A stretch of DNA of 64,000 nucleotides. It comes from Lepraria neglecta (taxonomy: Eukaryota; Ascomycota; Lecanoromycetes; Lecanorales; Stereocaulaceae). The stretch lies in assembly GCA_033220425.1 (NCBI GenBank), contig CM065653.1, forward strand, positions 3,658,001 through 3,722,000. Direction: 5' to 3'. Every line of letters begins with the position of its first letter. Within the stretch, counting starts at the first letter, position 1. The notes beneath the pieces were generated by a model, which ran no database searches, was not told the origin of the DNA, and worked only from the letters and a program-made list of their open reading frames with translations. Of this stretch, positions 12,103 to 59,609 are shown in pieces. The position numbers and the translations under genes were made by a program.

Positions 12103-14057
<1,955 letters not shown>

Positions 14058-19753: not shown

Positions 19754-20355
19754 TGTAGATTCATAGACATTTTGTTAAGAGTTCAGATGTTGGTTCCTGG
19801 TTTGTTGATGTGGCAAAGCATCATCGCTTTCGCTATTGCCTATTGGAGAATGTTCAGACATCAAGTCAGATGCAATTACACTATTCAGAAGAGCGAGGCT
19901 CCTTTGACATTCAGATAGTACAGCCACCGAAAACTTACCTGCCGAGCTGAATGTTTTGTCATAGCGGTCTGCAAGGGTCTTGCGCTAGCGTGGAACTTGG
20001 CCAAGAGAAGCTAGCCCACAATGCACAGCCACGTCGTGCTTTCCATACTTAGCCTCGACTCAAAACTAGGATGCTACTCGAGTGAATCGGTCTAGACAAG
20101 TACCAAACGTCTTAGGTTCTTTGGCTTTGAAGGAAGTCACATTACACTGTTTGTTCATGTTCTGCAGGCAACAGACAAGACCTGTACTCTTTGTTGAATC
20201 TTCATTCCCGGCCTAGTGCTGCTTGGTTTGCTTTTCCATGGACCTTAGGCTATAGTGCTTCTACATTGTCATCGTCCACGCTACGCTTGATTGGCTGTGG
20301 ACTCGGTCCCAGTCATCAATGGAACACTAGATATGCGGAGCATATTCAAGTAACC
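19754..20355. other. Divergent intergenic region
   Basis: About 600 bp between the ankyrin gene (minus) and the HET remnant (plus). Nothing recognised. Confidence 0.4.
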
Positions 20356-27114: not shown

Positions 27115-27581
27115 ATTTGATTGATAGTATTGATAAATCAAAGTGAAGATTGTGTTGTACTCTGGGAGGGGCGCTCGAACAGATAAATCGGAGAAACTTC
27201 GGGACTTGACTGTAGGCTTGGCGCTAACCAACACCACACTGCATGTTTGCAAGCGGACAGAGTTAGACACAAGTCCCCAACTTGAGTTTCAGTTATCCCG
27301 GTGGTCAAGCTTGGTTCTTCATCTCTCCACCGCTTTGTGCTTGCCAAGCTCACGGTTCGCAAAATAACCCGGATATCTCCCCAACTTGATATCCAATATA
27401 CTTGACAGTAAGCTGTGAAGGGTTGGAGATTTGGGTCTGAGACCTGTGCAAATCCTCGATCACTGCTCAGTGGCCCCACATTCGATGCCAATTCTTGTAG
27501 TCCGAGCAGCCACGACGAAAAGTCGAGGGGCTACTGGCCGAACTTTTTTCCTACCTGCGAGCCAAGCAGCCAACTCTCATC

Positions 27582-38247: not shown

Positions 38248-39390
38248 TTACTGTTCCGGAAAGGTCCAATTCAGCAAGTATGTCGCGTAGGCTGCCTCCA
38301 CAAGAGCTTCTGCGCTCCCTTCATCCTCTGAAGGCCCTACTTCGAGCTTGTACTGTAGCTCTTTCGAGGCAGAGTCAAGCCAAACGAGATCGGAAGTCTC
38401 AACACCTGGGAGCGAGACCGCTAGTTTTGCCTTCCATGCCTCGTCGATTCCCGGCTGCTGCAGCAAGCCCTGGATCACGGTGGTGAAATTCCAGTCGGCG
38501 AGAGTCTTTCCTTGCTGGTAAAGTTATTCATGTCAGTAATTCCCTTTACAATTGCGCATCCGTTGGGGGGAGCATCTATTAGAGTTGACATACCTCGAAA
38601 TGCAGTTGAAGATGTTTCAGACGCTGCTGAAAGTCCGAGAACGTGGTAACGCAAAATCCACAAGACCATGCCTGCTTCTCGAGAGTATGCTTCCTTTGGC
38701 TTGCCAATGCTTCGGCTTGCGGCCTGTAATTGACTCCATGGATTTTGGCTAGGTGCTTGACCATATCGCATCTTCTCTTGCAAGAGTATAAGTGACCACT
38801 CGCCGACACGCATGCGTGAATGCTATGTTTCTCAAAATGTCGGTTATTCGGATTAGTAGCGTTACAGAACGTGCACTTGAATCCGAGGTTGGTCATCTCG
38901 CTGATCCCCCCAAGCATACACACATAAGTGGCTTCGTGCTGCTTCTCCTCCCTGCGCCAATCGTCACTGTTCTTGTAACATTTCGGCTTATTTTTTCCGC
39001 AGCCAGTGCACCAGTAGATGCCAGCCTTCTGGATATCTCCATCCGCATGGCCTGAAGCAACGTCAGCCACCTGGCTTGCTCACGACATGCAATGTTATAC
39101 TGACCACCAGCACGAGCTTCATGAATCCAATGGAGGACCAATACGTCTTCACAGTTTCCTAGTGTCAAGAAGGCGCCAACGATCTCCCGTGACAGAGTCC
39201 AATTTCTAGATTGCAATTGAAAGCCGCCCCTTTTTGCGAAAGCGAGCCAAGCGACAATCTCCTCATCACGGCGTTCTTGCAGGGCAACGATAGCTTTCAC
39301 CTGGTTAGGGTTAGGTGCGACATACTGCCAGTTCTCAATGCCAGTAGCGGGAAACATCAGATCCGAAATTGCGTTGTTAGCGTCAAGCAA
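38248..39390 (-). CDS. Zinc-finger paralogue 1 (AWL-module/CGFC-finger family), 3 exons
   Basis: Exons 39390-39105, 39051-38594 and 38514-38248 join in phase to 336 residues. The N-terminal module has two helical motifs: VALQERRDEEIVAWLAFAKR and LGNCEDVLVLHWIHEAR. The phase-1 intron follows. Then fingers: IYWCTGCGKNKPKCY with DDWRREEKQHEATYVCML; FKCTFCNATNPNNRHFEKHS; LYSCKRRCDMVKHLAKIHG; and WSCGFCVTTFSDFQQRLKHL ending in LHFE. The last exon holds NFTTVIQGLLQQPGIDEAW and LQYKLEVGPSEDEGSAEAL. It lacks the long disordered tail of two paralogues. The fingers are CxxC...H types; a nucleic-acid or protein-binding role is inferred. Nearest in type to the paralogue at 57798-59609. Function is not known to me. 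Confidence 0.8.
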
Positions 39391-40285
39391 GAAAGAGAAG
39401 TATTAGAGTCAGACTGTTGGTGAATGGGAAGTATGAATAGAATCGTTAAGCTAACTTCATGTCAAAGTTGAGGATTCGATCAATACACCTCAGACTGTGC
39501 GATAGATCACCGCCAATTGCAGCTCACTGGAACGGCCCTTTAAAGAGAATGTTCTCTGGCTGTCAGCCGCCGTTCATGCTGGCTGGCCGCGAATTTGACA
39601 CCGACCCAACTTCCCCGCCTTGATTGAGAAACCGCAAGCTCGTTACCATCTGGCTACTCCAATCATGCACCTGGCCAATCAAACAATCAAACATCGATTA
39701 TGTCATGTCCTAGCCAATACCTATCCATAGAGCCGAGAGTCAGGCATGGGATTAGAGCCGAGAGTCAGGCATCAGAATACCTCTGGGAGGATCAAGAGCT
39801 TTTTTATCAACGACAAAAAGTGAGGCAACCAATACGAAGAGTTACACGAGTGGGGCGAGGTGAGGCTCTGCGAGGCTTACAAGAAAGGAGTTCCAACCAG
39901 TGGCAGAAGAGAAAATGCGCACTAATGCCACGTTGGTGATGGATCAGGACAGAGCAAGCCACCCGGGTCGGAAAAATGTGATTGGTCGCCTCACATTTTC
40001 TTCAAACTTGATTGGCTCAGAGCAAAAGGAATGGAAGCTGTTTGGCCTTTGAAATAATCAAACATAGCTCACCCTGGATGTCAAGGAACCAGGAAATGCT
40101 TCTCGCAATGCTTGCGCAAGCCATTGAGCGACTCGCGTGCGATACTGAAGGTTTCCCTACCGGAAGGTTCAGCCTCAGATATTATAGAGAAAATCGCACC
40201 ATTTCTCTAATGCGAGGGTCAAAAACAATACCCGCAGGGCTGTTAGAGCTGCGGTAAGAGGATAGCATTCATGTTTGTTTACATG
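39391..40285. other. Intergenic region with a 20-bp tandem repeat
   Basis: About 900 bp upstream of zinc-finger paralogue 1. No gene supported; it holds the repeat at 39728-39772. Confidence 0.4.
39728..39772 (+). repeat. Direct repeat TAGAGCCGAGAGTCAGGCAT, two copies
   Basis: Copies at 39728-39747 and 39753-39772, identical, with a period of 25 bp. Lies upstream of the minus-strand zinc-finger gene (start 39390); role unknown. Confidence 0.75.
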
Positions 40286-41095
40286 TTACGCTGTTACGGC
40301 ACCAGCCTCTTCCAGCACCTTCTCAAGCTCTTCATCATTTCTCGCCTTGGCTAGATCCATAGGCGTCCTCCTTATCACATCCTTCAAACCCACATCCGCG
40401 CCCCTCTCAATCAAAAACTTCACAACATCCCGATGTCCTCCATTCACAGCCCTATGCAACGCACTACCCATATCCTCCCCATACCTCTCATCAGTCGGAT
40501 GCTCAATGCCAATCTCATCAATATCAGCCCCTTTCTCAAGCAAGAATTTCACCATCTTCAATTTTCCTTCTTCTGCTGCCATTACAATTGCGCCCGAGCC
40601 TCTCACATGCGCACCATTTTCCACTAATAGTGCGGCCATCTCGACGGAAGCTAATTCGGCGACTGCTGCAAGTATGGTTTTGTGCTCTTCATAAAGATTT
40701 TTGTTCGGATTCGCGCCGTGTGAGAGGCAGAGTTTGGCCCATTCGAAGTCGTCGTCTGTGGCGACGTTGGAGAGGATGTCGCCAAACCAGGGGATATACT
40801 GATCGACTTCGACAGCTTGAGACTCGAGGAAGTAGATGTATGTGTTCTTGGCGCGGCAGATGAGAACCTTCTGCATCACATTGTCTGTGACCGCTGCGCC
40901 CTTTTCGAGGCAGTATTTGACGACGTTGAGATTGTCTTTGCCGGCCGCGGTATACATCATCTCTGGGAAAGGAGGCTTGTATGACGGATTTGCGGCTCGT
41001 TGGCGAGATACGTGTTTGACGATGGTATCGAGGTCGCCATCTTCGCAGGCTTGGTGGAGCTCGTCACCTAGAGTCGCCTTGGTTTGGGCTTCCAT
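40286..41095 (-). CDS. Ankyrin-repeat protein
   Basis: A single-exon protein of 269 residues starting MEAQTKATLGDELHQACEDG. Ankyrin repeats are evident: LHQACEDGDLDTIVKHVSR; MMYTAAGKDNLNVVKYCLEK (G at GAAV); TILAAVAELASVEMAALLVE; AIVMAAEEGKLKMVKFLLEK (GADIDE); ALHRAVNGGHRDVVKFLIER (GADVGL) and a last half repeat, TPMDLAKARNDEELEKVLEE. About six repeats; no other domain, signal or membrane segment. It is probably a cytosolic protein-binding scaffold. Partners unknown. The gene looks intact and lies between two zinc-finger paralogues. Confidence 0.85.
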   Translation of the reverse strand: MEAQTKATLGDELHQACEDGDLDTIVKHVSRQRAANPSYKPPFPEMMYTAAGKDNLNVVKYCLEKGAAVTDNVMQKVLICRAKNTYIYFLESQAVEVDQYIPWFGDILSNVATDDDFEWAKLCLSHGANPNKNLYEEHKTILAAVAELASVEMAALLVENGAHVRGSGAIVMAAEEGKLKMVKFLLEKGADIDEIGIEHPTDERYGEDMGSALHRAVNGGHRDVVKFLIERGADVGLKDVIRRTPMDLAKARNDEELEKVLEEAGAVTA

Positions 41096-43002
41096 GGTTG
41101 CGATACGGTCTTGAGTGTTACTGTTTGGTCGTTGCCTATGAAGACTGCCACTGTCTTGGTAGACTGAATTTTATCGGTCAAATTCTGACCTCCAAATTCC
41201 TATCTTCAGGACAATCACTGGAGGGGAAAGTGATGACCCCGTGAAAAAGGAGCTGTATGCGTGGCTAAAGGCTCGACTGTCATCGAAACCAACACAAAGG
41301 CATGCCGTTCTGTTTAAAGAGACGAAATTTAGGATGGGTATCACGAGGATCATGGGTGTGGATATCGCTACAGATGAAACATAAAGTCTTCAGCTCGGCC
41401 GCAATCCTTCGAGTGCACAGGATTATTATTCGATTGCTTCCTGTCGTGGTGGGTAGGCAACCGATATCATTTGGAGACTGTTGTCATACAGCCTAATCTT
41501 GTTTCAATGCCAGGGCGGCTGTGCCTCAAATTCTTTAGCACGTGTTGGTGTCAAAAGCTGACCCGTTCCCTCGGGTCAACCAGTAATGATACGAAGATAT
41601 GCTACAATGGAGGGGCGGGAGAGTGATGTTTCAGGCAGGCAGCGTTGAGGCTGTGTCGTGGCATCCATATGAAGATGTTGGTGGCAATCCCAAAAGTGTG
41701 GTTGCAAGCGGGAGGTCTGATTTGCCAAGTCTTTTCTCGGAAAATTTACGGAATCCCACGCCAAGGTCTGCTGACGAACCAATCATCTAGAATTGCGCTC
41801 GGTTCGGCCCGACCGTTTCAAGCTTGAAAACAAGATTTCGGAGAGTTTTTCCCCTTTTTTCGTCACCGATATGGTATCAGAGATAGTGCGACTTACTCAA
41901 TGTCTAGATTCCCAAGCCCGAGCGTGCTCAGGGTATCTCAACGAGATCCAGTCAGTTTCAGTGATTATATGAGGTTTTCTTTTCGCAAAGGTGTTGGATT
42001 GTTCTTCTGTTGACGAAATATTTTCCTGGCAGGACGGCGGCAGCTGATGCAACCTTTGCCACAATTCTTCGACTCTAGAGCCTTTCTAGGACTAGGATGA
42101 CAAATCATAGACGTTATATGGTAGTTAGCACTCAGCTTTAGATGCAACTGTTTCGATTTGAGCCCCCACGTAAGATGAATCAATTCCTAGGGCTGAAGAC
42201 GTATTTAGTTGAATTGTACTTCGCCACACCTCTCCGAGAGGGCTGCACCACAGAAAAGACCATTCGCACAGCAGAAGAAGAGCACCCACATGATGCTCTG
42301 ATGTTTTAGCAACGATGTGAGGGGTCTAGGGGATGGATACTGCGCATCTATATGAAAGGGTAATGCAAACATCCCTATCCACACCTTCTTGAATTCACCA
42401 CCTGCCATCCAATAATGTTTTGTTCAGCTCCGTCTTGGCATGTATGAGAATTATTTTAGTGTGTCTCGAATATAGCATCTAATAGAGCTATGATGATTGA
42501 TTCTTCATTGGCCAAAAATAGTCCGCTGCTCGTTCTCTTCTATGTCATAGGTCGTACTTTTCAATATGCATGGAATCTATGCAGGCAGTGTTAGCTGTGC
42601 CGTTCCAGAGTTGGAGGACCTTGACCACTGGCATTCTTGAAATGCGTGCTTCCCTTGCTCTTTTCCAATAACCTGACATGTTTCACGAGGTGGGATGTAG
42701 CTCCGTCTTCATCTCCAACTTGCTCTCTGTCAGAACTAGATTATTTACGGAGGATGCCTACGGTTGGACCTATTCCTGCTTTGTCTCCCGTAAGTTGGCG
42801 GTGCGAGATTCCTCATCGGATGACCACTCAGTCTTCTATATAAAGAGATATGGACTTCGCGACTTCTGTAGAGCCAGAACAGCGATACTGAAGACTTCAT
42901 CCAGCTTCCATCTTTGCTAAGTTGAATCCTTCCTTGTGTAATTCTTCAACTTCAACTCTCAACTCCTCTCGACCCGACACGTCGTCAAACCTTCACCTTA
43001 GA
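41096..43002. other. Gene-poor stretch, nothing recognised
   Basis: About 1.9 kb without a supported gene. The last 150 bp (CT-rich, with CAATCCTTCC and CTCTCAACTCC) are likely the promoter and 5' UTR of the secreted protein at 43003. Confidence 0.4.
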
Positions 43003-44111
43003 ATGCCTTCCCATCAAATGCTTTCCAAAGCCATGATTTTCAATGTCATTCTTCTCTTCCTCGGAATCCTCCTCCAAGCCACTGCATCTCCACTAGCAGA
43101 AAACTCCCTGCAGACCCGAACCCTGGGAAAACGCTACGAAGGAACCCCATCCGGCAAGCTCGGCGACGGCGGCCCAGACACCAGCGACTACCAAAGCGAT
43201 TCCGACATCGCAGCCGCCTATGTCGCCCCCAACGGCGCCTTCGTCTTCTTCTCCGGCATCCAAGATTCCCAAGCCCCATACCAATTCTCTCAAACGCTAT
43301 CACCACCAGGATCAATCCTCCGCGGCGCGTTCACGAAGGGATTCGTAACGCGAGGGAAACCGCAACGATCGGTGCAATGGTTCCAGGATTTCTTGGACCG
43401 CACATCCGGGTATTTTGCTGACCAGGCTGTTGCGGCTGGTAATCCCGTTTATTTTGTGGGGAATTTCAATGGCGAGGTCAACGATTGCAGTATTTGGTCG
43501 AGGATTGAGTTGCCGACGCTGGTTGCTGGGGGCATCCAGATTACGCTTGTCGATTATACCAATTTCGCTAATCAGGCACCGTATCCCGTACCGGGCGGTG
43601 CTCTAGGTCGCCGTGATGCGGATAGCAGTTTGGTGAAACGCACTAATCAGTACTGTGCCGACTGGCAGGGTGATCAGGAAGATCCTGCTGATCCGGACTC
43701 GACTCCTGGTGTTGGTCTGGATTATTACCCCGGCAATTGCGGTGTTCACGTTGTCCAAGTAAATCAATACTACTCTCGTATTCATCCCTTGCTAACAAGA
43801 AATAGTATCAAAAGAACGAAGGTGCACCCGACTCAACGGGTGGAACATCCAATTACCGCTTCGACATCCTGATCAAAGACGACCAGGGTGAACTTGTTGG
43901 AGAACTGGACTACGCCGATGCGCCTGGCGGTCAAGGCGTTGGTGTTGACAGCGCTTTACCTGAAGTCCTTACCGTCACGGCACAGAACGTTGATAGCGAT
44001 CCGGTGCAGTTTACATATGCGGGGCAGTCGTGGGACAGCAATTCTGGGCAGTGCAGCGTTGGTGGGTATGATAGCGGCTCAAGACAAATGGACTGTGCAT
44101 TCACTTGCTAG
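43003..44111 (+). CDS. Secreted protein with a Kex2-type site, 2 exons
   Basis: Exons 43003-43758 and 43806-44111 join in phase to 353 residues. A start at 43003 (MPSHQMLSKAMIFNVILLFL) gives a signal peptide (ILLFLGILLQATASP), with a further in-frame Met upstream at 42922. A Kex2-like KR (TLGKRYEG) follows about 20 residues later, so a propeptide is likely. The mature protein has IAAAYVAPNGAFVFFSGIQD, TSGYFADQAVAAGNPVYFVG, VNDCSIWSRIELPTL and ITLVDYTNFANQ, then a second basic site (ALGRRDADSSLVKRTN) and a Cys-bearing end (GQCSVGGYDSG, DCAFTC). No family is recognised. Dibasic sites and secretion suggest processing in the Golgi; the role outside the cell is unknown. Confidence 0.75.
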
Positions 44112-44540
44112 AAGGCTGGCGCACCAAGAATGAGTTAGTATTCATATTTTGAGGACCATGTAAGTTGATTGGGGCTGGCTTTGCTGGCGTTTTGAAAGGC
44201 ATTAGCGTTTTTTGTGCTCTGAAGGTTCCATGTAAATGTTTTTTCAACGTGTTTAGTCATGATGGTCGTAGACGAACATGTCATCATTAGCAGCATGAAT
44301 TGATGCAGACCGCTCACTCACTCTCTTACATACTCTCCCAAACGCCTCTAAGAGCTTTCTAGATGCCGCAATGCTCATATTCAGTCTATGTCCCAAAGCG
44401 CCACATTAGCCAATATCAATCAGAACGCCGTCTAGTCCCATTCTTCATATCGTTAGCACGTCCAGCGTGCAGAGATGTCTTCCATAGCGGTGAAACTAGG
44501 AACTTTTTCTTTATCGTCGAGCTCATATATTATGTCATTG
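44112..44540. other. Intergenic region between convergent genes
   Basis: About 430 bp of 3' flanks; nothing recognised. Confidence 0.4.
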
Positions 44541-46758
44541 TCACTGGCCTTCAATCCGCCTTCTGCTTTGTACATGGTCATCGTCGTATCTATATTGGGA
44601 GTGCTGTCCAGTGTCTATGACAGAGCCAGGGTTACTTTCTTGTTCAAACTGGTAGTCTCTTGCCTTCAAACCCGAGAGCTTCCTCTTAGGCCTTACGACT
44701 AGGCGTGGCGATCTCTTGCGGACTGGAGCGTTGATAGTGATGATTGGAAGGGTATTGTCCATTGAAGGAGGTGAAGCGTCCATTGGGCCGGTACTGAGTA
44801 AACCATCGTTCTGGACTAGAGATTCGGGGCGGTATGCGTCGTGGTTGGAGGGGACCTCTGGAGGCATAGGGCTATGAGTGGGATTGAAATCGCCCTGGAG
44901 TTGGGTAACTTTGCCGAAGAGGGCCTGATTTGGTCCCCCGCCTTCATGGGTCTGTCTCTCCGAAGGAGTGAATGGAGTCCATGGCTCGGCTTGCGTGTTC
45001 CAAAAGTCCATCGTGTCGCCATTTTCGTTTGGTGGAAGCTCAACCTGGCCCATTAAATTTTCCTGATCGTAGTCCGCCCCTTCCTGTATATCGGCGTCAG
45101 GGAGGTCTTCCAAGGTTGCGCTCATCGTTTGGAATTGACCGTATTGAGAGCTGCATGGGTCTGATTTGAGGTTGGCAGCAACATTGCGGTATAAATCAAC
45201 AGGACTTTGATTGTTTGGAATGTAAAATTTTCCGGACGAGGAGTCTAGCTGGGACGCGGAGCGGGACTGAGGCGCTTGCATGGTGAAAGCTGTTTTTTGT
45301 GATACTGGAAGACTCTCCTCCATCTCCAGGTCTTCGTTGCTTGGTTGCACGGCGGTTCCCCTAGCAGTCCCCACTTGATGGCTCCGATAGTATGAGCTTT
45401 GCTTGAAGGCCAGTTCCGCAAGTGCTTGTGCTGAGCCCTGACCGATTTCAAGCTTCAGCTGCACGTATTCGCTCACGGTCGGATTCCAATGGGCGCTTAG
45501 ATCAGAGTCTGAGCGAACGTGATGTGTGGCCAAAAGCTCCTGCCACGAGTTGCTCACTCCAGGTTGAAGGAGCAAACCTAGTATGACCCTGTTGGTATCC
45601 CAGTCCCTTATATGCTGGTGTTGGCTCCAATGTTCCGTCTCAATGTGACTATTTTGTTCTTTGACCGTGAAGAAGATGGAGATACAAAAGCCGCACGAGA
45701 AGAATCTCCGCCTGTTCTTATGCGAATCTCGCCATACGTCGGCGAGTGTAGAGGCATTGGCTTCGGAAGCGTTGTGAACAGCTTTGAGGTGTCTAACCAT
45801 ATTGGCCTTCCTGGTATAGCTGTGTGCTTTCTCGTATCCCCCATGGCATTTGGAGACAGAGTGTGTATCGAGATGATTTTGATCGGGGTGAGGTAAATGG
45901 CAGAAGCAGCATTTCGGGCCGTTCTCCGTGGCGACGACCGGTCCATTCGGCATGCAAGGGTATATTGTCTCATGTTCCCTCATGTGTCTCTTCCATCCAT
46001 CACACGTCTTGATAACCTTGGGTTGTTCGCAAACGGTACACCAGTGTGCATGGCCACTAGACTTGGATGAAGAAGAGGAGACTTCCTCGATAGAGTTTTG
46101 TGAGTGAGGTGTGCCATTGCTTAGCGAGCTGGGCAGGGTACTTTGACTTATTCGACGGCCGTAGATAGAGGATGGAGGGAGGGAAGAGGTGGATGCTAAC
46201 TGAGAACTCCGAAATTTGTGCTGTGATGAGCGTGAACCGCGTGAAGATCTCGCAGCGAATGACGGCGAAGGGGTCAGTGAGGTCTGTGATCCCCATGCTC
46301 CCACTGCACGAGCCTGTAAGCCTAGTTTCAGCTACTATGAGGGGTCATCGACACCACTAACCAGCGCGATTGGCAAGTTTTAGCCAAGCCAGCACCTGGT
46401 CATCAGTACACCCTTTCAACACCGAGGCGGCATCCAGTTCCTGGGCGGAAAGTAATCCGGGACCACCATTGTGTTGATAGCCTGATCTAAGACACCGAAG
46501 GACCCTGAGCCATGCAAGTACCTCTGATGGATGGAACCTTATAAGGACTGACAGAGCGTGTTGCTGCAACGAAGTCGGCGGCACTGGATATATAACGGTA
46601 GGTGAATTTGTGCTTATCGAATCAAGGACGGGTTCATGTTTTGGTCCCGATAATGGAAAGGATTGGAGGGAGCTGGTGGGGCGGACCGAGAGTGTGGCTA
46701 ATGAAAAAGGATCGTCGCGTAACGAACGTGAGGACAAAGGGTCGGAGGCAGTTTCCAT
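44541..46758 (-). CDS. Zinc-finger paralogue 2 (AWL-module/CGFC-finger family), 2 exons
   Basis: Exons 46758-46362 and 46321-44541 join in phase to 725 residues with a short intron (about 40 bp, GTTAGT...ACTAG). The N-terminal part is Ser/Pro-rich; the AWL module follows: IRFHPSEVLAWLRVLRCLRS and LKGCTDDQVLAWLKLANRAG. Then AHWCTVCEQPKVIKTCDGW and KRHMREHETIYPCM, CCFCHLPHPDQNHLDTHS, HSYTRKANMVRHLKAVHN, FSCGFCISIFFTVKEQNSHI (ETEH), then NRVILGLLLQPGVSNSWQEL and KLEIGQGSAQALAELAF. A long disordered tail has TMDFWNTQAEPWTPFTPSER and a basic end (RKRSPRLVVRPKRK) fit for a nuclear localisation signal. The third finger has lost its CxRRC cysteines (YTRKAN). Function unknown; a nuclear role is inferred. 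Confidence 0.82.
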
Positions 46759-49700
46759 TCTTTCAATTAAGAGTAAAAGGAGTGACGGAGAAACGAAACA
46801 TCGCTACAGCAGTAATGGAAGCTGAGAGCAGCAATGGAAGACGAGATTCTTGAAGAAATCTTAGGGAACGGCACCCAGTTTTGGTTGAAGGACAACCCCG
46901 CATGCGCTGTGTTGGCATGCCAGAAGGTCGGCGGTCCATTCCTCCTCTTGTGCTTGAAGCTACGCTCGAGCTCAGGGTACAGCTTCCCTCCGCGCAGCTG
47001 TGGTGCATTGCATTGCAGATGCCAACATGTTGATGGCAGCCGTCAGGGTCAGTATCGGGGACTTGATTGGGGGTAACCCCCTGGTCCCTGTTGGCCGCCC
47101 AACCTAATTGTTTAGCGGCGGCCATTGCGGGTCCATCACGACGATCGCAAACTAAAAACAACATTTCGCTTACTCTCGATTTTAAGCTTCAAAAGTCGCA
47201 AACGGTGCCCATGGAGGCTAGGTTTGTTGACGACGTTGGCCTTTGCGAAAGTAATAAAAGAATTTTGTGAGACCAACGACAGCATATCTGGCCCATCGTC
47301 CCTTCCGTTCAGTCCAATTTCGTATCGAGAGCAGGTTAATCAGCGATGCTAGGCTGACTCTTTGTACAACATCCTCCCACTTTCGCAACGCCCTCCAATT
47401 AAATCCGAGGATACGCGAGAAAATACACGGTGAGACTGAGTTGCTGATTCTCGCACTACTAGAATTGTCGCAATAGTGTCAAGCGTTCTAGAACGAGCAT
47501 CGTTTTCTGCGGGGGGCTCGCGGGGTAAATCGCAGGAAGATCTTCGTCCCTGCAGTGGAGTGCTTTTTGGCGCGTTACCGCGTCATCACTTCCTGTGAAA
47601 TGGGCGTCTTGGGACCTAGATTTGCCGGATGGGGTAAAAAGGTAAGTGCTAGAAGACTTCCTAGGTAGGCGGTCTCAGACCCGAGAGATCCGAGACAATT
47701 CTCAGCTAGGCAGGTTATGGATGCTCTGTTAAGTGGCTATCTCTACTCAACTCTGTTGCATGCTATTTACATTTGATATTGGAGATTCCTTGTGTTATGA
47801 TGGTTCATTTGTGCCTCGTATCACGCCAGAGTCTTTAAACACCACATCGAGAATTCCTTCTTTGCGTCCCAATCTCGTTTTGATACGCCCGCTCCCTACT
47901 CTATAGGTTCAACGCTAGCTACTCGATGCCTGTCAGAATATGGCATCATGAGATCCACGCATCCCTGCTGAATAGGATCCAGTTGTCTCTGTTGACTGTT
48001 GCATAACAGCAATGGCACTTTCTAAAGCTTACGTGATTTCACATACCTTTCCCCTTCAAGCAGGCGCATTGTCCCATCTATCATGTTTCCAAGGTCTGCA
48101 ATCCGTGTTACTAATACGCCGGTAGTTGTCCAATGTCGGCATGCGAATTACAATGCAACGCAGCCTAATTCGTACATATGTGTACCGCTACTTACCCCGA
48201 TTTCGTATGTCATCCTACATTAGTACGTAGAATCTTGATAATTAAGGCTGACGCGTAGCCCACTGCCAACCGTTTCGCGCGCAGGTGACACAGTCCCCTG
48301 TTCTTGCTCCGTACGGCATTGGTGCCCAATGTCTCGACCACGAAATTATTTGAGTAAGTCGTTGCGAAGTGAAAGTGGCGAAGAAGCAAGTCATATTGAT
48401 CTATGCGCTTATCTCTTATGCATCAATTGTATTATTCAGGACGGCTTTAAACTTCTGCGGAGCCGGCCCCAGAACGCATGGACCGTGGAAGCCAACAGAA
48501 CGAAGGCATTTTAGTTCAAAGTCAAAACTCTGATTGAATGTTGGTGTCGTCTCGGTCACTCTGACTTCCCGACTTGATAGCTGAATAAATTGGGTAGGCG
48601 CTCTTGAGAGCTGAAATCATGCCTTAAAAAAGCGTGAGTAAAACAAGGGGACTCTCCGTTTCATGCTTTGGCTATTTCTCGAATGGTAAATTGACGGAAC
48701 ACTTGAGACACGCAGACTCATCCGACATTTATTCGTGATACCAAAGGAGTGCCTATGGTTGCTTTGTCAACTTGCGGCCAGAATCTAGCACAATCCCATG
48801 GGCAAATACCCAAAGAGTCGTCATAGCCTATCAATGTGCGCATTCTTTGTACTCGTGATATGCATTTGAAGTGGATATAAGATCATGATAGCAATTGCGC
48901 CACCTTTTGATGGACGCACCGGAGCCTTCACCGTATTATTGCTAAAACCGCTTCTGGTCCGGAGTTACACTTGTTCCGAAGGATTTCGAACATTGGAGAA
49001 GACTCCAGGACAATCGATATAAATTTGGAAACAATGAAGGCAAGGTAGCCTCAAATTTTTGAGCGCCCAACCAATCAAGGATTCCAACACGTATTGCGGC
49101 TGAGACTAAAGCAGGAAATTTGGAATGATTGGGGTCTTGCGCGAGATGATTCACTCGTGCGGTGCATGTCGGAACGTTTTAATTCAATACCTCAGTATGG
49201 AATTTAGTGCGAAATCAGGCCTTCTTACTTAAATGGCAGAAGGATCGAGATTTTAGGCCCGCTAGCGGGTGAAAGAAATGACCACGCACCCCTTAGGCTG
49301 CAGCCGCACAACTCGTCAACCTAATACTGTACACAAAGTCTGTTCATAACCCCCTGATAGACAACTTCGTCAGCAAGACCTATGTGTTAAAGTGTGTTTT
49401 CGAGGATATAGAGCACCTTCCGGATTTTGCAGTTCCGGGCTTTCGTTTCACCCGCGAGGCCGGCCACCTATATTTTTGCATCACGATACTAGACCGAAAC
49501 GGGGATGGGATTGCGTGGGATCCTCAGCTCCCGGCGGGCTTCAACCCAACACCACCATTTCACATCATTTCACATCAATTCTTGCCACCATCTGATCCAT
49601 CTGACCCAGCCACGACCTCTCCCCAGGCTTTCTTATACGACATGACGAATCAGCCCAATCTTAGGAGAAGAGGTGTCAATCCCAAAAAGTCAACGTGTCT

Positions 49701-49872
49701 CCCAAGACAAGGCTGCACTCGCGATTCTCTATATTACTCCACAGGTATCCCCTCTCCACTCTCCACGATAGCGTATCACCGCTATTGCTTGACCAAGTCC
49801 TACTTTCAATCGCTTCTTGGATCTCTATATACCCCTTACAAATCACGCTGATACGAACAGCTCCAACCTACC
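46759..49872. other. Long gene-poor stretch, nothing recognised
   Basis: About 3.1 kb upstream of paralogue 2. Only short frames. The last part, near 49820-49870, carries a TATATACCCC box and likely is the promoter of the secreted-protein candidate at 49873. Confidence 0.4.
49826..49833 (+). promoter_or_regulatory. TATA-like box before the secreted-protein candidate
   Basis: CTATATACC about 45 bp upstream of the ATG at 49873. Position is consistent with a core promoter for a short 5' leader. Confidence 0.4.
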
Positions 49873-50352
49873 ATGAAGATTCACCTCTTCGTCCTACTGG
49901 CCCTCCTCGTAATAACCGGCTCAACCAACGGTATCTCTCGCCGCCCGACCCTCGTAAGCAAGCAACTTTGTATCGTTCAGAGCAATCCCAGTAATGGGTC
50001 TTGCTGTGTATGCATCGCAGGTCGTCTCATCTTCGCAACCAAGTGGGCACGCGTGAAGCGTTCGCGCCGTGGTGAAGTCTCGGTCTCACCGAACACCGAC
50101 GGTCTATCCTCTCCTCCACCGAGCATGGGCAATACTACAATTACATCTCGCAACGGCGCCGATACTCGACCTCCTCCGAATAAACCCTCCTGGTTACCTA
50201 TGTTCGAAGACCTCGTAACCGCTGTCTATCGTGTCGTCCTGTTGTTATTCAACCTCAACATCACAATGACATTAAGGTTTCAAGGTCAGTCTCACTTCAT
50301 CCGAGTCGGCTACCGAACCGGAGCTGATAACTTTGAACAGCACATCAGATAA
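49873..50352 (+). CDS. Small secreted protein candidate
   Basis: A 159-residue frame with ATG in good context (CTACCATGAAG). It begins MKIHLFVLLALLVITGSTNG, a strong signal peptide, and continues with RRPTLVSKQLCIVQSNPSNG, SCCVCIAG and a basic stretch (RVKRSRRGEV, possible Kex2 sites), then a Ser/Thr/Pro-rich part (LSSPPPSMGNTTITSRNGAD) and a hydrophobic patch (VYRVVLLLFNLNITMTLRF). Cysteines are few and early. No family recognised. An orphan effector-like gene is possible, but the frame may also be chance beyond the signal sequence; introns could change its end. Confidence 0.4.
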   Translation: MKIHLFVLLALLVITGSTNGISRRPTLVSKQLCIVQSNPSNGSCCVCIAGRLIFATKWARVKRSRRGEVSVSPNTDGLSSPPPSMGNTTITSRNGADTRPPPNKPSWLPMFEDLVTAVYRVVLLLFNLNITMTLRFQGQSHFIRVGYRTGADNFEQHIR

Positions 50353-51600
50353 GAAACAGACTTCGACTTGGAAGAGACCAAAATGATCCGAGAAGGCCTA
50401 GATGGCCGGCATAGCCCTAGGTTGTTTTCCTCTCGGATAAGTCATCTCCAAATAGCTATACAAAATATCGCATCTAGGCAGTGTTTACTTCTGGGTGGCC
50501 ATTTTTGGCGTCTTGCTGACACCTCCATCTCCAGAAAGCCTATCTGTCAATCAATGTCTCCTCAACATTCTAAACTCATCGGCCTACTCCCCAACAATCC
50601 GCGTTGGACACACACGCTCAGTCTGTCATCTCATTTCTCGAGCATAAGTACTCCACCTCCTAAGCCCCGGCCTTCACGCCTCGAGCGTCCGGTTTCGAGC
50701 ACCAAATGGCTTTGGGCCCCGAGCCTTGACATATTTCCTCTAGCCTCCTTCCTCAACTACACAATCCGACCATCGACCTTGATGCTCCGCCATGATTGTC
50801 TAAGGTGCTCTCCACTCTTCCAGCAGCAGCTCCGCAAGTATTTTGAATTTCTGGTTTGGCGAAAAGGGCGTGGGACGCCCAAGAGCTGGCTGCCCTCTCT
50901 ACATTTGGAACCTTTTTTAGGTATATGTAGGGATATCCCATACTATTATCGCAATGGCGCTTGGAGTTCTCGCAAGTCGCCAGAATTCCCATAGATTTGT
51001 CAGATGTAATATAGCAATCAAAATCCGTTTAGTCGTTGTTTGAAACACTTCACGTTGGACCTGTTGTGTGGCTCAACTACCCATATAGCCCCAAATCGCT
51101 CCTTCTCGTTGGGTGTCTCAAGCTAATAATATATCAATCACATCACTCATAAAGAAGGTCTGCGCAGCTAAATCTATAAGAAAGACCCTTCTAGGGAATA
51201 ATGGAGAGGACTGAATTTTTTGACACGTCAAATGGCCCTAGGTAAGCTAATGTAAGACAATTGATAGAAGTGAAGCCATCTTTGAAGAGGTAGGAAAGGG
51301 CCGTAGCAGATCTGCAAGCAAATGGAATATAAGGTAGAAAGAATTTGTGATATGCTGAAATCCTTGCGTGTTCCGATTCAAGCTGACGGCCTGAGGTCGT
51401 TGTGGCTCGTGAATTCGTTCATCGTACACTTGTTCTGTCTATGTCTCTTCGTGGAAATCTCTGTGTTCCACGAGCTCTTAGAAATCGCTAAGTCCGCGTG
51501 GCCTCGTAGAGTTCGTTGTCTAATGCTGTTAGTGGTGGATGATATACAACGACAGAGGCAGCTCTCACTCCATGTCCAGTCGTTGGCGGCTTGGTATCAT
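50353..51600. other. Intergenic region, nothing recognised
   Basis: About 1.25 kb. Short frames only; no motifs. Confidence 0.35.
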
Positions 51601-53450
51601 TCAGTCATGACATGTGTTTCGTGGATCATTATCGCCGCGCCTGCGACATTGCCTCGAATTATGGCTATCACGACTCTGGCTCTGTGGCTCGTTGTCGTCT
51701 TGCGATGCTGAGAGCGACATCTTTCTCTGAAATTGAGAGAACAAGGAGTGTTGTCTCCTTTGGGCGTCAGTGTTGTTGTTTGGATTGAGTCTATCATGGG
51801 TAGTGAGGAAGTGGTTCGTCGTGTCGGTGTTTGGGACTTCGGGATGATGAGGCTGGTCGTCCTGGTACTCGGACGGTTCGCTTGCAGAGGCCGTTGGTGG
51901 TCCGTTTCTGAAGTCGTATTCTTGCCAGCCTCCAATACCGCGGAAGTAGTTGGGAGGCGGTACATGTGTATCTTGCGCTCCTGCATTTGGAGGATATGCA
52001 GGATCCAGCTGGGAGGTAGGTATTGCTTGACCAAATTGCGTCATGTCCTGGCAATATGGAGCATTATTACCATTTCCGGCAAAAGGAGTGGTGACTGACG
52101 ATGCGTCATGTTGGGCTGGAGAGGGGTCGAGACTTGAATCATCAATGCCGTTTTCGAACGCAGACCTGGGAAGCTCATGAGGATAGGCTTCTTCTAAGGG
52201 CCCAGCGGTATTACCAGTATAATTCAAAGCGCTTGATAAAGGCCCGTGCGAGATGTTAGGCTCCGGTCGCGCGGCAGGCCAGGCTTGGCCAGCATCCATG
52301 TCTTGGTCCATGGGGTCAAGGGCAGTCATTGATTGATCCTCGGCGTGGCGGTTGTAGTAGTATTCCGTCGACACCAAAGCTTCTTCTGCAAGCGCTTCCG
52401 GAGAATCCTCGCGCATTTCGAGTCTGACCTGTAAGTCGGCGACGATGGACGTATGCCAGCTACAGTCGGAGTGGGAAAGAGAATTAGATGTCAAGATGTG
52501 TTGCCAAGCATTCGTCACCCCCGATTGGAGCAACAACCCCTTGATGACGTTATTGTGGTCATATTGACTGATATCATGAGACTGCCTGTAATGCTGGGTG
52601 TCAATGTGGTTCATCTGGTCTGCGAGGGTATTGAAAGAGGTGATACAGAATCCACAGGCGTAAGCCTTCTTCGACTGGGTGCTTTTCCATTGATTCGCTA
52701 GGGACAGTCCATTCGGAATGCTATGGCTCTCCTGAAGATGCTTCACCAGATTGACCTTCCTGGTAAATGTGCGAGCACTTCCTAATGTTGACGCAGGTCC
52801 GCATAGTATGCAGGGATAGAATGTCTCGTGCTCCTTCATGTGCCTCTTCCATCCGTCACAAGTATAGATTGGTTGAGGATTCTCACAGACGATGCACCAA
52901 TGAGCATGTGGGTGGGCAGAGGGACCAGAGGATGATGATGCACGCTCATCGATGGATTGTTCTCGAGACAGACCAAGGAGAGAGCCGCCTCGGCTCAAGG
53001 TGCTTCTCAGCGTGCTTTGAGCGGCGTGCTGAGTAGGGAGCATTTCTGCGACGAGGGTACCGGCAGATGACCTGTATATAGCTCTTGATAATTCATTTTG
53101 GGGTTTTTGTGGCGCAGGGGCAGTGAAGTTATGAGTCGCACCATATGGACCATGCAAAGATGGTGTGTTTTCTATTATTAAGTCTCATTAGCTCGGCTTT
53201 GTCGAGCAACTAAGGGCAAGAGGTACTGACCAAATTGACCACCCCACTGTAGAATCGCTGATACATGATCATCAGGAAGCCATTGAATGACGAAGAGGGC
53301 GTCCAATTGTTGACGGGGCAGGCATCTATGACTCGGCGAATGCTGACAGCACGGGTCGAGCGAGCGAAACACTTCAAGCCAAGCCAGCACCCTTGCTACA
53401 TCAAATCCTTGAAGATTTGCGATAGCCTCTTGCTGTGAAAGAGGAGGCAT
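51601..53450 (-). CDS. Zinc-finger paralogue 3 (AWL-module/CGFC-finger family), 2 exons
   Basis: Exons 53450-53231 and 53171-51601 join in phase to 596 residues. It opens MPPLSQQEAIANLQGFDVAR and VLAWLEVFRSLDP, the first AWL motif; the second is altered (FVIQWLPDDHVSAILQWGGQ). After the phase-1 intron comes AHWCIVCENPQPIYTCDGW, KRHMKEHETFYPCIL, then directly GSARTFTRKVNLVKHLQESH: the CxFC finger found in the other three paralogues is missing. AYACGFCITSFNTLADQMNH (IDTQH) and NNVIKGLLLQSGVTNAWQHI follow, then VRLEMREDSPEALAEEALVS and a long disordered, Asn/Gln/Pro-rich tail. Closest to the paralogue at 44541-46758. Loss of one finger within the family suggests relaxed or changing binding. Function unknown. 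Confidence 0.82.
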
Positions 53451-56400
53451 CGTAGACTCGTCCTATTGATTGACTGGGGAAGCTGGCTCAGTTGTCTCCT
53501 GCAACGATCAACAACTTTGCTGCTGCTCTAAAGATCCATATTAGAAGAGGGTGAGAGGGTAAGCAAGAGTCGAAGGACGGAATATTGTTGTCGAAATTCA
53601 AACAATAGATTGATGATACAGCTCCAGATGCAATGCGTTCGGAGCATGTATAAAAGGAGGACTGAGAGCATGACAGATTGCAGCGCAGCAGGATTTCCAA
53701 AGAATGGAAGCTCGAGCATATAAGAGGAGCATGAGAACGAGACAAGCCAAAGCAGCCAGGTCAGGGCAGTTGGCCGTCCGGAGTGATCCATCATGGCCGC
53801 CGTGGATATCAATGGCTCAACGAGCGAGTCACCTATCACTCGTGAGTCGCTAAGCATAACACGAAAATTGCTGATGCCTCCACTACAAGGATTTAAGAGA
53901 TCCCGGGAGATGCAAAGAATTGGAGGTGTCTTTTCGAAAAAAGACCGAAGCCACCTTTCTCCACATATCTTTACCAACAGTAATCGGCTCCCGCCCTAAA
54001 ACTCTAGGCACTCGATCTACTTTAGGCTCTCTAATTACGCTCTCACGGGTCGGGCGCGAGGTGGCTTTGGGACGACGTGCCCCCACACAACCTCGCGGTC
54101 CCACCATTCCTCTTATCTATTCCTAGAAAGGTAAGGGCTACTCGCCGTTGCAAAAGTCGCTTCAGTGTGATACTGTTGATTTGGCATAGCACTTCGGCGA
54201 CTTTCGTGTGGTGCGGTCCAGCTATTGGACCTGAAGACGTCAAAATTGACTAAGCCCCATATTCCCTGCTAGACTATTTCTTGGCAGCCAACCTAGATTA
54301 TAGCGGCAGCCAAGGGGGCGATCAGGGTGCTCTTCAACATCGTCGACTTCTCGCTCCCAACCCCCATTTTGGAGCCGCGTAACCTTGGATACGCTGCACT
54401 TCTTCGTTCTCTAGAGGATACGTACGCACGTACTGTCCAGTAATATTCCAATTTACTGCGGAGGAAGAGGTTCATTGTTATCTGCACGGACGCAACGCTT
54501 AGATGATACGGTTCAGGAATAATAGCATCCACACTTCGCCAATGCGATATGCTATCAGAACTAATCTAGATCTAGAGACTGCTTAGCTAGAGTTGACATC
54601 CGAGATCGTTCCCAGGTTTTTATGGGTCGTTGAAAGGCATGTCATAATAAAAAGATGGTAGTAATGTCATGAATTGTTGGTAGCATGTTCCTCAGATGAA
54701 AGCTAATCGAATGGCTGAAAAAGGCCGAAATGATCAAAACTCACCAACTCCCATAGAAGGCTGGTTGTGTTGAGTAGGCGCTATCAATTTTATGATTCTG
54801 TGGCTTGATATCTGAGACAAGATTTCAACTGGCCCAGGGTTGGAAGGATTCAGTTGGGCAGAGATCCGGGCTGATTCTCTACCCCTCAAAATTGTGATAG
54901 TGGGGGTCCCCGTTCCGCTGCAGACTACAGCCCACCCGCCGGCTCACAATCTCCATCGCGTTGATCAATACAAGGATTGTACCATGATGCTCCGCGAGTT
55001 ACATGATTCGTACCACGTTAGTTTTTGAAGACTAAATTATGCCCTAATTCTTCAAAGACGGATGGCGTTGCATTCTCCTCCAAACTTACCGGAGCTTCCG
55101 ACAAAAGACACAGAGAACCTTTACGTACAACAACGTCGATTTGCAACAGCAGATCCGATAAGAAGTTTTTCGGTCGAGATCCGATGCTGGCTGCATACGC
55201 AAATAGCTTCTGCTCTCAAATTTTCTTATCGGTTCCGTTTTTGCTAGCATCTCCAAGCCTGTAGTCTCAAAGGTTTCACAATAATCTGCGAGTTCATTGG
55301 GTTGGCCCGAAATAGAGAATCTCGTTCATATTGGCCAAAGAAGCACCTGAGCTGATGCAAAGCGGTGAATGTTGAACTATCAATAGGATTGGCAGGTGCT
55401 GAGTTTCCCCATTTTCTCCGTGGATGCGGCAATACCCCACAAGCACGATAAATGGAGAATGAACCATCGTCGATCATCTAGTGGAGGTGGGTTGTTTGGC
55501 CTTACCCCTGGGTTCCCCGTGCTCCCCGCTGCAGCTAGAATACCGAGTATGGAATTCCTGTGAAGATGAAAGCTAACATGATGCAACAATTGGCTCTGAT
55601 GTACGTTACGGTCTAGAACACAGGTTGTAGCTCGTCATTAGAACCGACTCACTAGAAGCCACAAAGAATTATGAAACCACACTATCTCCAAATCAGCGGA
55701 GCTCGGCCCCTAACTCAGCGCCCAGCTCAACCTTGTTTAGCTCGGAGCCTTCAGAACGCCCGTGTCATCAGGTCAAATACAGCTCACCCGCCGTAGGCAC
55801 TAGAATTGCACTTCAAAATACATCATACTCTGATTCGACCGCATGAGCGGAACTGCCAATCATTTCTAGTAATCATATCGTGGATTGTTAGTACATTTGT
55901 TTCCTAGAAAACTGCACTACGCCTCATCCTCACCGCCAGATCAACAGTACTTGACGGCTTTGGCAATTCGAAAGAAAATTCTCGTATTCGACACGAGAAA
56001 TTGGCATGAAGCGCGACCCCTTGCATGAGAGCGTGGGATGACTGAGTGGTGCCTTACGATGATCTCTACTTCCACGGCGCGGTGCATCATATAGATCGGA
56101 ACCCATCGCTCGGCTGACACTAGTGACCGTTGTCGTTGAGCGCAAGGTCACACGCCTTATTTGGAGAGTGCCGGATCCCAAATTGGCTCTCTTTGACATG
56201 GATTATCACGGCTATCATGCTGTGTATACTTCTCGTTATATGCCACGTATGTTCCCAGGATCTTGGCGCTGACCGCCAGCCATGGCGGCCTTGGCAGCAA
56301 TATCCAGGAGTACCAGGATCCAGGAATCTGGAATCTACGCTTTCATCATTCTATCTCTCAAGTTCTCACTCCCGACCGCCCTACTCTATCTGTCACGTTT

Positions 56401-57797
56401 TGAAAACGTCTCTTTGACCTGGGAATTCTATAGTATGAGCATGTTCGCGGCTTAATTGTGAGTATGCATCATTAATTTCATAAGAAAATTGGGAAGGAAT
56501 GCAACAAACTTGATACCTCGCTCTACGGATTATTACGACGAAATAACTTAAGTATGAGGAGCCTGCAGAGCACTCGCTGATATCCTCAATCCTCGATCTA
56601 GGTACTCGTACTAATACTCCTCGGGGGCATACATACAGCTGATTGAACTCATTCAATCTACAAGAATGTACTCACTAACTCGGTACGTTCTTCACACTTG
56701 ATTCGTACCATACTCCGTCTACTACGTCCGTCTTCCACTATCCTCGACCGGATCACATGCCTAGCACCATACACTTCGCCCTCATACTTCCCTCAATGCC
56801 CTTAGGCATAATCCTCAGCACAAAAACGGGTCTCTACAGGGAATAAGTTGCGTGCCGTGAGCAGAAGGATCAACACACATATATGGCAATCAGCGCCTGT
56901 TTAAGAGGACTATGAATTGGTGATATTCATGTCTGGAATATTCATTATTCGTAAGGTCTCGTCATACCTGCATTTAATTTTGCATATACACGGGGAAACT
57001 TTCGGATAGAACAATAATCTCAACCTGCATGCATGATACATGTGTCGATATCGCTAGATAGAACTTTACATCCACTACGTCTCGTTCAAACTACCGCTCG
57101 TCTCGTACTAAAGAGTCAAATCTTCCTTTCATACCAACCGAAATGAGGTGAAATAGTAATTCTGGTATAGTTTTAAGTCTGTTAAAGTTCAAAGAACCTG
57201 TGATTTCGGCGATGCCGATGAATGATATGACTGAGTGCAAGTTCTCACCACGCAAGAGCACAGAACCCGTAGTGCAACAGCAGCTCGGTAGAACATCGGC
57301 GGATGCACATTGCTTGGCAAGCTGGATGATCCAATCAGGCTTCCTCGATTACCAAGTCTGGTACTAGGGATCCTGGCCTCCCTTGTCTGCTGTTCAATTT
57401 CAAAAGACGCAAGCTCATTATCAGGACTAGAGTAAAGCGCAATATAATTTTTCATACCGTAGTCTGTGAACTGGTATACTGTAACAAGACCGCCTCTCCC
57501 AGCCATGCGCAATGCTAATCTGTTCCAATTATATCATTGCAACACTCAGTTCTTGACGAAAAACGCAGCAGGCCGCCATTCCAACCTAGGGTCATTCAGC
57601 TAGGTCTAGTGCTGGCCTCAGTCAAACTTGTCTGCCATTCCCTAGTCTATCAATTACAAAATTCCTGTCATAAATTCATACGGCACCAGGCCTAGGAGAG
57701 ATTTTGTGTATAATTTGATCAAAAAGCGGGGAAGGAATTCATCTCAGCAGATCCATCCATGAGCGAATCAGCTTGAACCATAATGCTGCTTCACAGC
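53451..57797. other. Long gene-poor stretch, nothing recognised
   Basis: About 4.3 kb upstream of paralogue 3 and downstream of paralogue 4. No gene, RNA or repeat is supported. A minus frame at 57189-57512 (MRMAGRGGLVTVYQFTD) was weighed but has no family or splice support. Confidence 0.4.
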
Positions 57798-59609
57798 TTA
57801 AAGCCTGCCGTGTCGAGATCGATCGGTTCGCTTTCTCCTTTGCGTGCCTGCGCTATCATACTCGGATGATGCTGTATACTCTGTTAGCCCCCCAGAAGGC
57901 TGCTGCTCCTCGAAGGTAGCTTGAGTATTACTTTCGTTGAAGGAGAATGGCGGAGTTGGAAGTGGCGTCGGTTGGGTTGCCATCGGCATGGCGTTGGAAT
58001 AGCTATGACCAATTGGAACTTTGGTATACATCCTGCTCGGAAGGTTGATTGAAGCTGTGCATATTCTCGGAATAGGTGTTGGGCGATCGCAGCTGGTGTG
58101 GATGAAGAGAGGATGGAGCTCTTATTGCCTCGTTGCCGTCGTTGTATGGAAGCCCCAAAGATGCACAGCTGTCATGGTACTGGTTTGCGGAGAATGATCC
58201 CTTTGCTTGACTTTGATATGATGTCGAGTAGAAACCTCCCTCTGGATAAATTTGCTTGACTTGACCGGCACCAGCCCATGAATGAGACTGATGGTCGCGA
58301 GCAGAAAATGTCGGAGACCTTGGCCACTCTGGTACGATAGGCGGATAGGGAAGAGAGTCGAGGCCGGGAACCTGGGTTGTGGGCGCTATGTACGACTCCA
58401 TGGGTGAGATAAAGTCTACCTTCTTTGGGTCATCAGCAGTGGTACGGTCCAAGTCACTTTGGCTGGACGCGGCCCCATTTATGTTACTCAAATTATACGC
58501 AGCTTGCGCAAGGCCCTCAGCGGTCTGCTCATGGCAGGGTCCCAGCTCAAGCTTGTATTGCAAGTCCTTTATGCTGGGATTCTGCCAAGTGATATCCGAC
58601 GGCTGATTTAGGGATAGTGAAGAAACCATGCTTTGCCACGCTCTATCAACCCCAGGCTGTGTTAATAGACCTTGAATGACTTTATCATCGTCCCATACGG
58701 CGAGTCCTTGCTGGCGCTCGAAATGCTGGGTGCCGATGTGTTTCAGTCGGTCTTGGAAATTGAGGAATAGATGGCCGCAGAATCCACAGGCCCATGCTTT
58801 CTTTTTATCAGCATGTCGCCATTTGTTAGCTATCCCACGGCGCTGCACGAGGTCCTCAATCCCATGAACCTTGCCCAAATGATCCACCATGTCACACCTC
58901 CTCTTGCATGAGAACGTATGTGGTCCCCTGACATCCTTCAATGTAGCGTTATGCTTTTCGAAATGGTCGATATCCGGGTCGCTAGATCCACAGAGTACAC
59001 ATTTGGTGCCATGCTGCGTAATCCCCTGAAGTCCACCGAGCATACAGATGTATTTGTATTCATGCTCCTTTTCTTCCCTTCTCCAATCGTCTCTTCTCTG
59101 ATACGATGTTGGTTTCTCCTTACCGCAGCTGGTACACCAATAGATACCGCTCTTCTTCGCTGCGAGGTTGCTAGATTGTGCTTTCGAGCAGGTGAGATGC
59201 GTCTTTGATAGGCAATCTTTGGTCCCACTTTGTGAAGACGCGGCGGGGAGCTCGGTGATTAGGGTGCTGCTATTGCCCGGCAGGCGATCTTTTAAATTGA
59301 CCTCTATATAATGGCATTAGCACTCGTCCCTTTTGGATAGAATACAGTGGACTCCTGACCTTCCAATCGCGTAGTCTCTAGCCACGCAAGAACCCGGGTG
59401 TCTTTGCATTTTTCCAAGGTTTTGATGGCATGAACCTGCGGGACTGACAATCTGCCACGACCGTCCCAGTGCCGGAAACCACCTTCCCGCGCGAAGGCGA
59501 GCCATGCAAGTATCTCCTGACCCTCGTAAGGCTGTAATGCCACGACGGCCGCTTGTTGTTGTGAAGATATAGGATAGCTCGGTAAGACTTGCCTCCCGGT
59601 ACCCCACAT
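57798..59609 (-). CDS. Zinc-finger paralogue 4 (AWL-module/CGFC-finger family), 2+ exons
   Basis: Exons 59609-59360 and 59303-58003 join in phase to 516 residues. AWL module: VALQPYEGQEILAWLAFARE and LEKCKDTRVLAWLETTRLE. After the phase-1 intron: GIYWCTSCGKEKPTSYQRR, DDWRREEKEHEYKYICMLGG, TKCVLCGSSDPDIDHFEKHN, HTFSCKRRCDMVDHLGKVHG, WACGFCGHLFLNFQDRLKHI (GTQH), then DKVIQGLLTQPGVDRAWQSM and LQYKLELGPCHEQTAEGLAQ, and a disordered tail. This frame ends at 58003, but a second frame, 58031-57798, goes on with a Pro/Thr-rich tail and SEYDSAGTQRRKRTDR, as in paralogue 2's basic end. So a missed intron or one-base change near 58010 may hide the true C-terminus. Closest to the paralogue at 38248-39390. 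Confidence 0.8.

Follow-up and report, generated by a model that had tools for sequence, protein, structure and literature searches.

The described proteins closest to those reported here are the classical C2H2 zinc-finger factors (PF00096) and the fungal factors of dual specificity, in which C2H2 fingers are combined with a Zn cluster or with a homeodomain. According to a survey of the latter (Shelest 2017; PMC5415576), factors with C2H2 fingers and a homeodomain are present in 60% of the surveyed fungal genomes and reach up to 27 genes in Sclerotinia sclerotiorum, and paralogues with C2H2 fingers and a Zn cluster in Aspergillus nidulans lose finger ligands and fingers in a stepwise manner. 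A second survey, on A. nidulans (PMC8396895), reports that 16 of the 73 C2H2 factors are likely duplicates and holds that tandem duplication is not the main route for Zn2Cys6 factors. Here we analyse four genes, A to D, in a stretch of 64,000 nucleotides from Lepraria neglecta (Ascomycota; GenBank assembly GCA_033220425.1, contig CM065653.1, forward-strand positions 3,658,001 to 3,722,000; hereafter the window, with positions counted from its first letter). All four are located on the minus strand between 38248 and 59609, at the places given in an original prediction. Judged from their sequences, they are paralogues of one family with a layout beyond that of generic zinc fingers. Our tentative reading, held with slightly less than even confidence, is that they are old clustered zinc-finger paralogues under purifying selection that act as nuclear regulators, with a helical interaction module and a non-canonical zinc module.

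All six pairs of proteins are similar by blastp (expectation value E from 2.2e-26 to 1.7e-86, identity 29-42%), with A-C (30.0%, E 2.2e-26) and A-D (41.6%, E 1.7e-86) as the extremes in E and B-C at 34%. The similarity extends over most of the protein length and the blocks follow each other in the same order: a module with AWL motifs (the AWL module), a zinc-finger block and a block with GLL and KLE motifs (the GLL/KLE block), the last two together forming what we call the core. Pairwise scores were also determined block by block and compared with 500 shuffles per pair. All six pairs are beyond chance for the GLL/KLE block (z from 14.6 up to 28.1), for fingers 1-3 (z at least 11.8) and for finger 4 (z at least 7.7). 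For the AWL module five of the six pairs score above all shuffles (z at least 6.9), the exception being A against C, which stays under the shuffle maximum with a z of only 2.7. In addition, a phase-1 intron of 53-59 bases is found immediately after the AWL module in all four predicted gene models. Given the pairwise similarity, the block-wise shuffles and the shared intron, the four genes can be assigned to one family; the layout of the blocks and their conservation are direct observations. This bears out the original prediction of four same-strand genes with one layout, as well as its expectation that the shared blocks are more than generic C2H2 fingers, since the GLL/KLE block (all pairs) and the AWL module (five pairs) exceed their shuffles.

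The motifs that had been listed for the family hold in part. The strings WCxxC, HExxYxC, CGFC and GLLxQxG occur literally in all four genes, whereas KLExG is found in three (C has RLEMR instead), A(E/Q)(A/G)LA in two, and of the eight sites at which (V/I/L)(L/V/I)AWL would be expected six have it. Three of the four genes have AW following GLLxQxG, with SW in B. The rest of the six-frame translation of the window contains WCxxC three times and AWL and KLExG once each; single motifs are therefore weak evidence, but their combination is not.

The gene models consist of open frames joined over GT-AG introns and should be read as predicted gene structures. For B the first splice acceptor tried, and for D one of two, broke the frame, and the frame-keeping acceptors were retained. 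Gene A (39357-38248, 325 residues) has three exons (39357-39105, 39051-38594 and 38514-38248) and no C-terminal tail. Its first intron (39052..39104, phase 1) matches in position those of B (46304..46361), C (53172..53230) and D (59304..59359), all in phase 1; its second intron (38515..38593) follows finger 4, a place at which none was seen in the models of B, C and D. The other genes have two exons each: B (46758-44541, 719 residues) is composed of 46758-46362 and 46303-44541, C (53450-51601, 596 residues) of 53450-53231 and 53171-51601, and D (59609-58003, 516 residues) of 59609-59360 and 59303-58003. The previously proposed boundaries were recovered for B and C, but gene A was modelled from 39357 rather than 39390 (the ATG used is 33 bases downstream), and D was modelled to 58003 rather than 57798 as no good joining intron was available. 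The tail of D may run on to 57798 in another frame: on the minus strand an open frame at 57798-58121, whose basic end reads QRRKRTDRSRHGRL, overlaps with the last part of D. The gene may truly end there, reached via a second intron or a frameshift. Among the 25 best candidates listed for such an intron, the best matched the donor at 4 of 6 bases, and the branch-site consensus used was present in none of them.

Fingers 1-4 of gene A were located at 38594..39031 (minus strand, as are all blocks given for A to D) from the alignment and its Cys/His columns, and its GLL/KLE block, in exon 3, at 38287..38511 from motifs, alignment and the shuffle test. For the other genes the fingers were delimited together with the GLL/KLE block: at 45405..46049 in B, 52378..52905 in C and 58477..59157 in D (motifs, alignment and Cys/His columns in each case, with a weak structural model for D). 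Ten Cys/His columns of the core alignment are invariant in all four proteins. Finger 1 is CCHC-like, with the invariant ligands C-x2-C...H-x5-C (the HExxYxC motif); B and C have an extra His four places before the invariant His, where A and D have a Glu. Finger 2 (C-x2-C and H-x3-H) is present in three proteins, A, B and D, and mostly deleted in C: 31 alignment columns are gone, the profile match skips columns 43-71, and the CILC pair now precedes the H-x4-H of finger 3 to give a composite CILC...HLQESH finger. This H-x4-H is invariant in 4 of 4 proteins, whereas the Cys pair of finger 3 is found in A and D only; its Cys partners thus differ between the pairs A+D and B+C. Finger 4 has the pattern C-x2-C-x12-H-x3/4-H with CGFC in each protein. 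The assignment of these ligands to shared zinc ions is our reading of the columns.

The GLL/KLE block comprises 75-82 residues, in which helices are weakly predicted. Gene B, C and D proteins continue in tails of 159-283 residues with 46-49% Ser, Pro, Gln, Asn, Thr and Gly. The three testable pairs of tails gave z values of 2.2, 0.2 and -1.5, and no clear relation was found between them. Basic runs of three or more residues are present in the tails of B (RKR, KRK and RRR within 283 residues) and C.

If the proteins are gene-expression regulators in the nucleus, a role that we infer, the zinc block would touch nucleic acid in a non-canonical way and the AWL module would pair the proteins with one another or with some partner. 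Finger 4 might have the GLL/KLE block packed against it, and the tails, rich in Ser, Pro and Gln, might recruit the transcription machinery. Under these assumptions the tailless A and the finger-deficient C could have other targets or exert a dampening effect. If the four genes do regulate expression, any census of transcription factors that relies on Pfam domains would miss them.

Several observations weigh against such a role. The core of a classic C2H2 finger is formed by Phe-x5-Leu between the Cys and His pairs; at the Leu site finger 4 has an Arg in A and D (where a Leu follows one place further) and a Gln in B and C. Neither a TGEKP nor a TGE(K/R) linker was seen in any of the four proteins, and none of the 4 proteins and none of the 5 core pieces that were searched scores above the cut-off of any Pfam model. 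The AlphaFold2 model of the core is weak, with a mean predicted local distance difference test score (pLDDT) of 51.5. Gene A ends after the GLL/KLE block and lacks a tail altogether, and basic runs are limited to two of the three tails, with none in D as modelled. Finally, DNA binding, nuclear location and expression of A to D are predictions.

The chief alternative, which we consider possible though less probable than a nuclear regulator, is that A to D are zinc-dependent scaffold or RNA-binding proteins, in which the fingers hold a compact fold while the AWL module and the GLL/KLE block serve as protein-protein surfaces. The conservation of the GLL/KLE block in every pair would fit such proteins, as would the missing canonical Leu in finger 4, the lack of TGEKP-type linkers, and the loss of finger 2 in C and the absence of the finger-3 Cys pair from B and C in proteins that otherwise keep the layout. 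The comparison of the core profile with solved structures points the other way. It retrieved 32 sequences at E up to 10, of which 26 overlap finger 4; all six matches at E below 0.05 fall on this finger, and five of these are C2H2 fingers, several from DNA-binding proteins (ZBTB17 is the best match at E 2.9e-5, and Teashirt 3 has an E of 0.0013), the sixth being the RNA-editing protein MP42.

With respect to the age of the cluster, the core sequences differ at a proportion of synonymous sites (pS) of 0.76-0.95, which is saturated, against 0.32-0.45 for nonsynonymous sites (pN). For the AWL module these values are 0.66-0.90 and 0.41-0.56, respectively, and both this module and the tails change faster than the core. 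The tree ((A,D),(B,C)) obtains a support of 100 with the core and 99 with the AWL module, on four sequences with one internal branch and, for the AWL module, with A and C at the end of very long branches. The genes follow one another as A-B-C-D along the chromosome, such that the A+D pair encloses the B+C pair. A fifth copy was not detected in a six-frame profile search of the whole window (38.2 kb to the left and 4.4 kb to the right of the cluster), the next-best matches having an E of 0.17 for the AWL module and 1 for the core.

At 36-64 kb no long ungapped DNA repeats link the copies, a search that gapped or weak repeats can escape; inverted repeats are absent from the same region and only two short direct repeat families are present. 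The single repeat family of at least 25 nucleotides common to the genes is a coding stretch of 26 nucleotides at the CGFC motif of A, C and D, whose copies are 73-85% alike; a tandem pair of 25 nucleotides is found at 39728-39777, and the window holds three short tandem arrays. Dinucleotide composition gives no signs of repeat-induced point mutation (RIP), with TpA/ApT at 0.59-0.80 in every one of the 16 bins of 4 kb, as judged against a threshold for RIP. We rejected a link of the cluster to transposons or RIP, given the lack of inverted repeats, the few short repeats and the ordinary RIP indices. The core pS of 0.76-0.95 and the lack of long DNA repeats likewise argue against a recent gene array. 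Because identity is 29-42%, synonymous sites in the core are saturated, pN is lower, and long repeats and RIP are lacking, A to D look like old duplications under purifying selection, arranged in two well separated pairs, A+D and B+C. The description of the family as locally expanded and fast-changing therefore finds no support in this form: the copies are clustered, but their divergence looks old and their core constrained. The variable parts are the tails, the deleted finger in C and the absent finger-3 cysteines in B and C.

These data also bear on a reading in which the genes evolve fast, serve in recognition or conflict, be it self/non-self or defence, and vary in copy number between strains. 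The clustering of paralogues and the divergent tails are in line with it, and the window also contains a HET-domain gene and a second gene with HET-like motifs. However, selection on the core appears to be purifying and its synonymous sites are saturated, neither a recent nor a decayed copy is seen in the window, long repeats and RIP marks are lacking, and the HET genes lie at least 15 kb from gene A, such that we regard this reading as unlikely. HET genes are common in filamentous fungi. The one in the window is located at 2755-3471 (minus strand; Pfam E 2.6e-31); the HET-like gene at 20131-21489 (plus strand) was recognized by eye from the motifs YQALSYTWG and DPRDMIYSILGL, and its piece 20848-21486 has no Pfam match at E up to 1.

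The AWL modules were placed by alignment at 39106..39357 in A, 46363..46596 in B and 53232..53450 in C, and the profile returns 127.8, 134.8 and 122.8 bits for them, respectively, in each case with a profile that includes the sequence itself. The module of D (59361..59609) was the sequence folded with AlphaFold2, using an alignment of the four exon-1 sequences, which resulted in a mean pLDDT of 81.0 and a predicted template modelling score (pTM) of 0.68. Helices are predicted at residues 16-25, 30-41, 44-47 (short), 56-65 and 70-82, so that the model contains nearly the same hairpin twice, 40 residues apart (10+12 and 10+13 residues). At the sequence level, the first and second halves resemble each other in A, B and D (in each case the score was reached by 0 of 1000 shuffles), and in 10 of 16 half-to-half comparisons at most 1 of 1000 shuffles did so. 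In C the second hairpin is degenerate and the likeness of the halves is not significant (53 of 1000 shuffles). We have fair confidence in a predicted helical fold of two hairpins. The original prediction had already noted a duplicated helical motif, which is clear in A, B and D but not in C, and had proposed structure prediction, which was informative for the AWL module whereas the model of the fingers and the GLL/KLE block is weak.

Helix-turn-helix-like hairpins might suggest that the AWL module is a decayed homeodomain, and A to D degenerate fungal factors with C2H2 fingers and a homeodomain, a class found in 60% of the genomes in the survey cited above (PMC5415576) and with up to 27 genes in one species. 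We consider this improbable. The module is predicted to have two hairpins with a short helix between them, not three helices, and no homeodomain model was among the Pfam matches that the AWL modules of A to D gave with E up to 10, though the HMMER filters drop most very weak matches. The best PDB match of the model with Foldseek had an E of 2.2 (0.96 among viral models), and the sequence profile of the module matched nothing among solved structures better than E 0.39. A homeodomain is laid out as three helices.

A bolder reading would see fungal domains not described before in the GLL/KLE block and the tandem hairpin of the AWL module. Through them neighbouring paralogues could pair variously, making the cluster a combinatorial regulator or recognition set with the tailless A and the finger-deficient C as built-in modifiers; we put this forward as speculation with little weight. 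Both blocks are conserved, have no Pfam match above cut-off and find nothing of note in solved structures. That the genes have only generic C2H2 fingers in common, alike by chance or convergence, is refuted by the pairwise blastp, the block-wise shuffles and the shared intron: finger 4 taken alone does match generic fingers, but the GLL/KLE block in six pairs and the AWL module in five match without any finger.

The surroundings of the cluster are of mixed content. Between A and B an ankyrin-repeat protein is encoded at 40286-41170 on the same strand as these genes (minus; Pfam Ank_2, E 2.7e-21), followed on the plus strand by a secreted-looking protein at 42892-44111, with a hydrophobic start as judged by eye; its first piece has no Pfam match at E up to 1. 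Over more than 4 kb between C and D (53500-57800) none of the listed frames makes a convincing gene, the longest ones wholly inside having 155 and 114 residues. Further to the left are a protein kinase at 27501-29354 (plus strand; Pfam E 1e-27), with about 320 residues lacking an assignment before the kinase domain, a weak F-box match at 13833-14615 (plus strand; E 0.0031, under its cut-off), a short-chain dehydrogenase at 12103-12927 (minus strand; E 7.3e-63) and a glutamine-synthetase-type gene at 8966-9751 (plus strand; Gln-synt_C, E 1.1e-60). Gene pieces at 4448-7137 (minus strand) contain LYRMHDDLWFWG, a possible xDD site, and resemble fungal reverse-transcriptase-like genes; for the piece 5186-5809 one weak PDB match was obtained (a group II maturase reverse transcriptase, E 0.21) and no Pfam match at E up to 1.

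As the original prediction had stated, no named domain fits the whole: neither a Pfam nor an NCBIfam model covers A to D. In NCBIfam, a prokaryote library, two weak matches to unrelated bacterial families were found (best E 0.019). Scans of non-fungal collections with patterns from two-row family alignments yielded 13 and 97 fitting stretches in bacterial and archaeal contigs and 11 and 61 in viral contigs, none of which was confirmed as a relative. Among the open-access publications listed no title or start of an abstract was found that describes the layout, and peptide strings of the family retrieved two chance letter runs in unrelated texts. The order WCxxC, CGFC and GLL-Q may recur in "hypothetical proteins" of many filamentous ascomycetes. 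A to D are probably members of those unnamed multi-finger C2H2 proteins; if this is true, the family is already in the databases but unstudied. Overall, the family is poorly described but not categorically new.

In comparison to the classical C2H2 factors (PF00096), the ligand pattern of finger 4 is the same in all four proteins, and this finger aligns with solved C2H2 fingers. The nearest Pfam match is zf-C2H2 in the core of C, on the second half of finger 3, which comes close to the cut-off (24.7 bits vs 25.2, E 3e-5; E 0.004 on the whole protein). Differences are that A to D remain below this cut-off, have no TGEKP-type linker, carry Arg or Gln at the core Leu site, and combine a CCHC-like finger 1 with two further conserved blocks.

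The fungal dual-specificity factors differ in their second domain, as searches of the four whole proteins at E up to 1 gave no Pfam match to a Zn2Cys6 cluster and none to a homeodomain. Nonetheless, according to their description (PMC5415576), A to D are like them in having a second helical module, here a predicted one, beside the fingers, and in being paralogues that lose finger ligands or entire fingers. The loss of finger 2 in C and the state of finger 3 in B and C resemble the losses described there, and the four genes illustrate how a protein can lose a single finger or its tail and retain its other parts.

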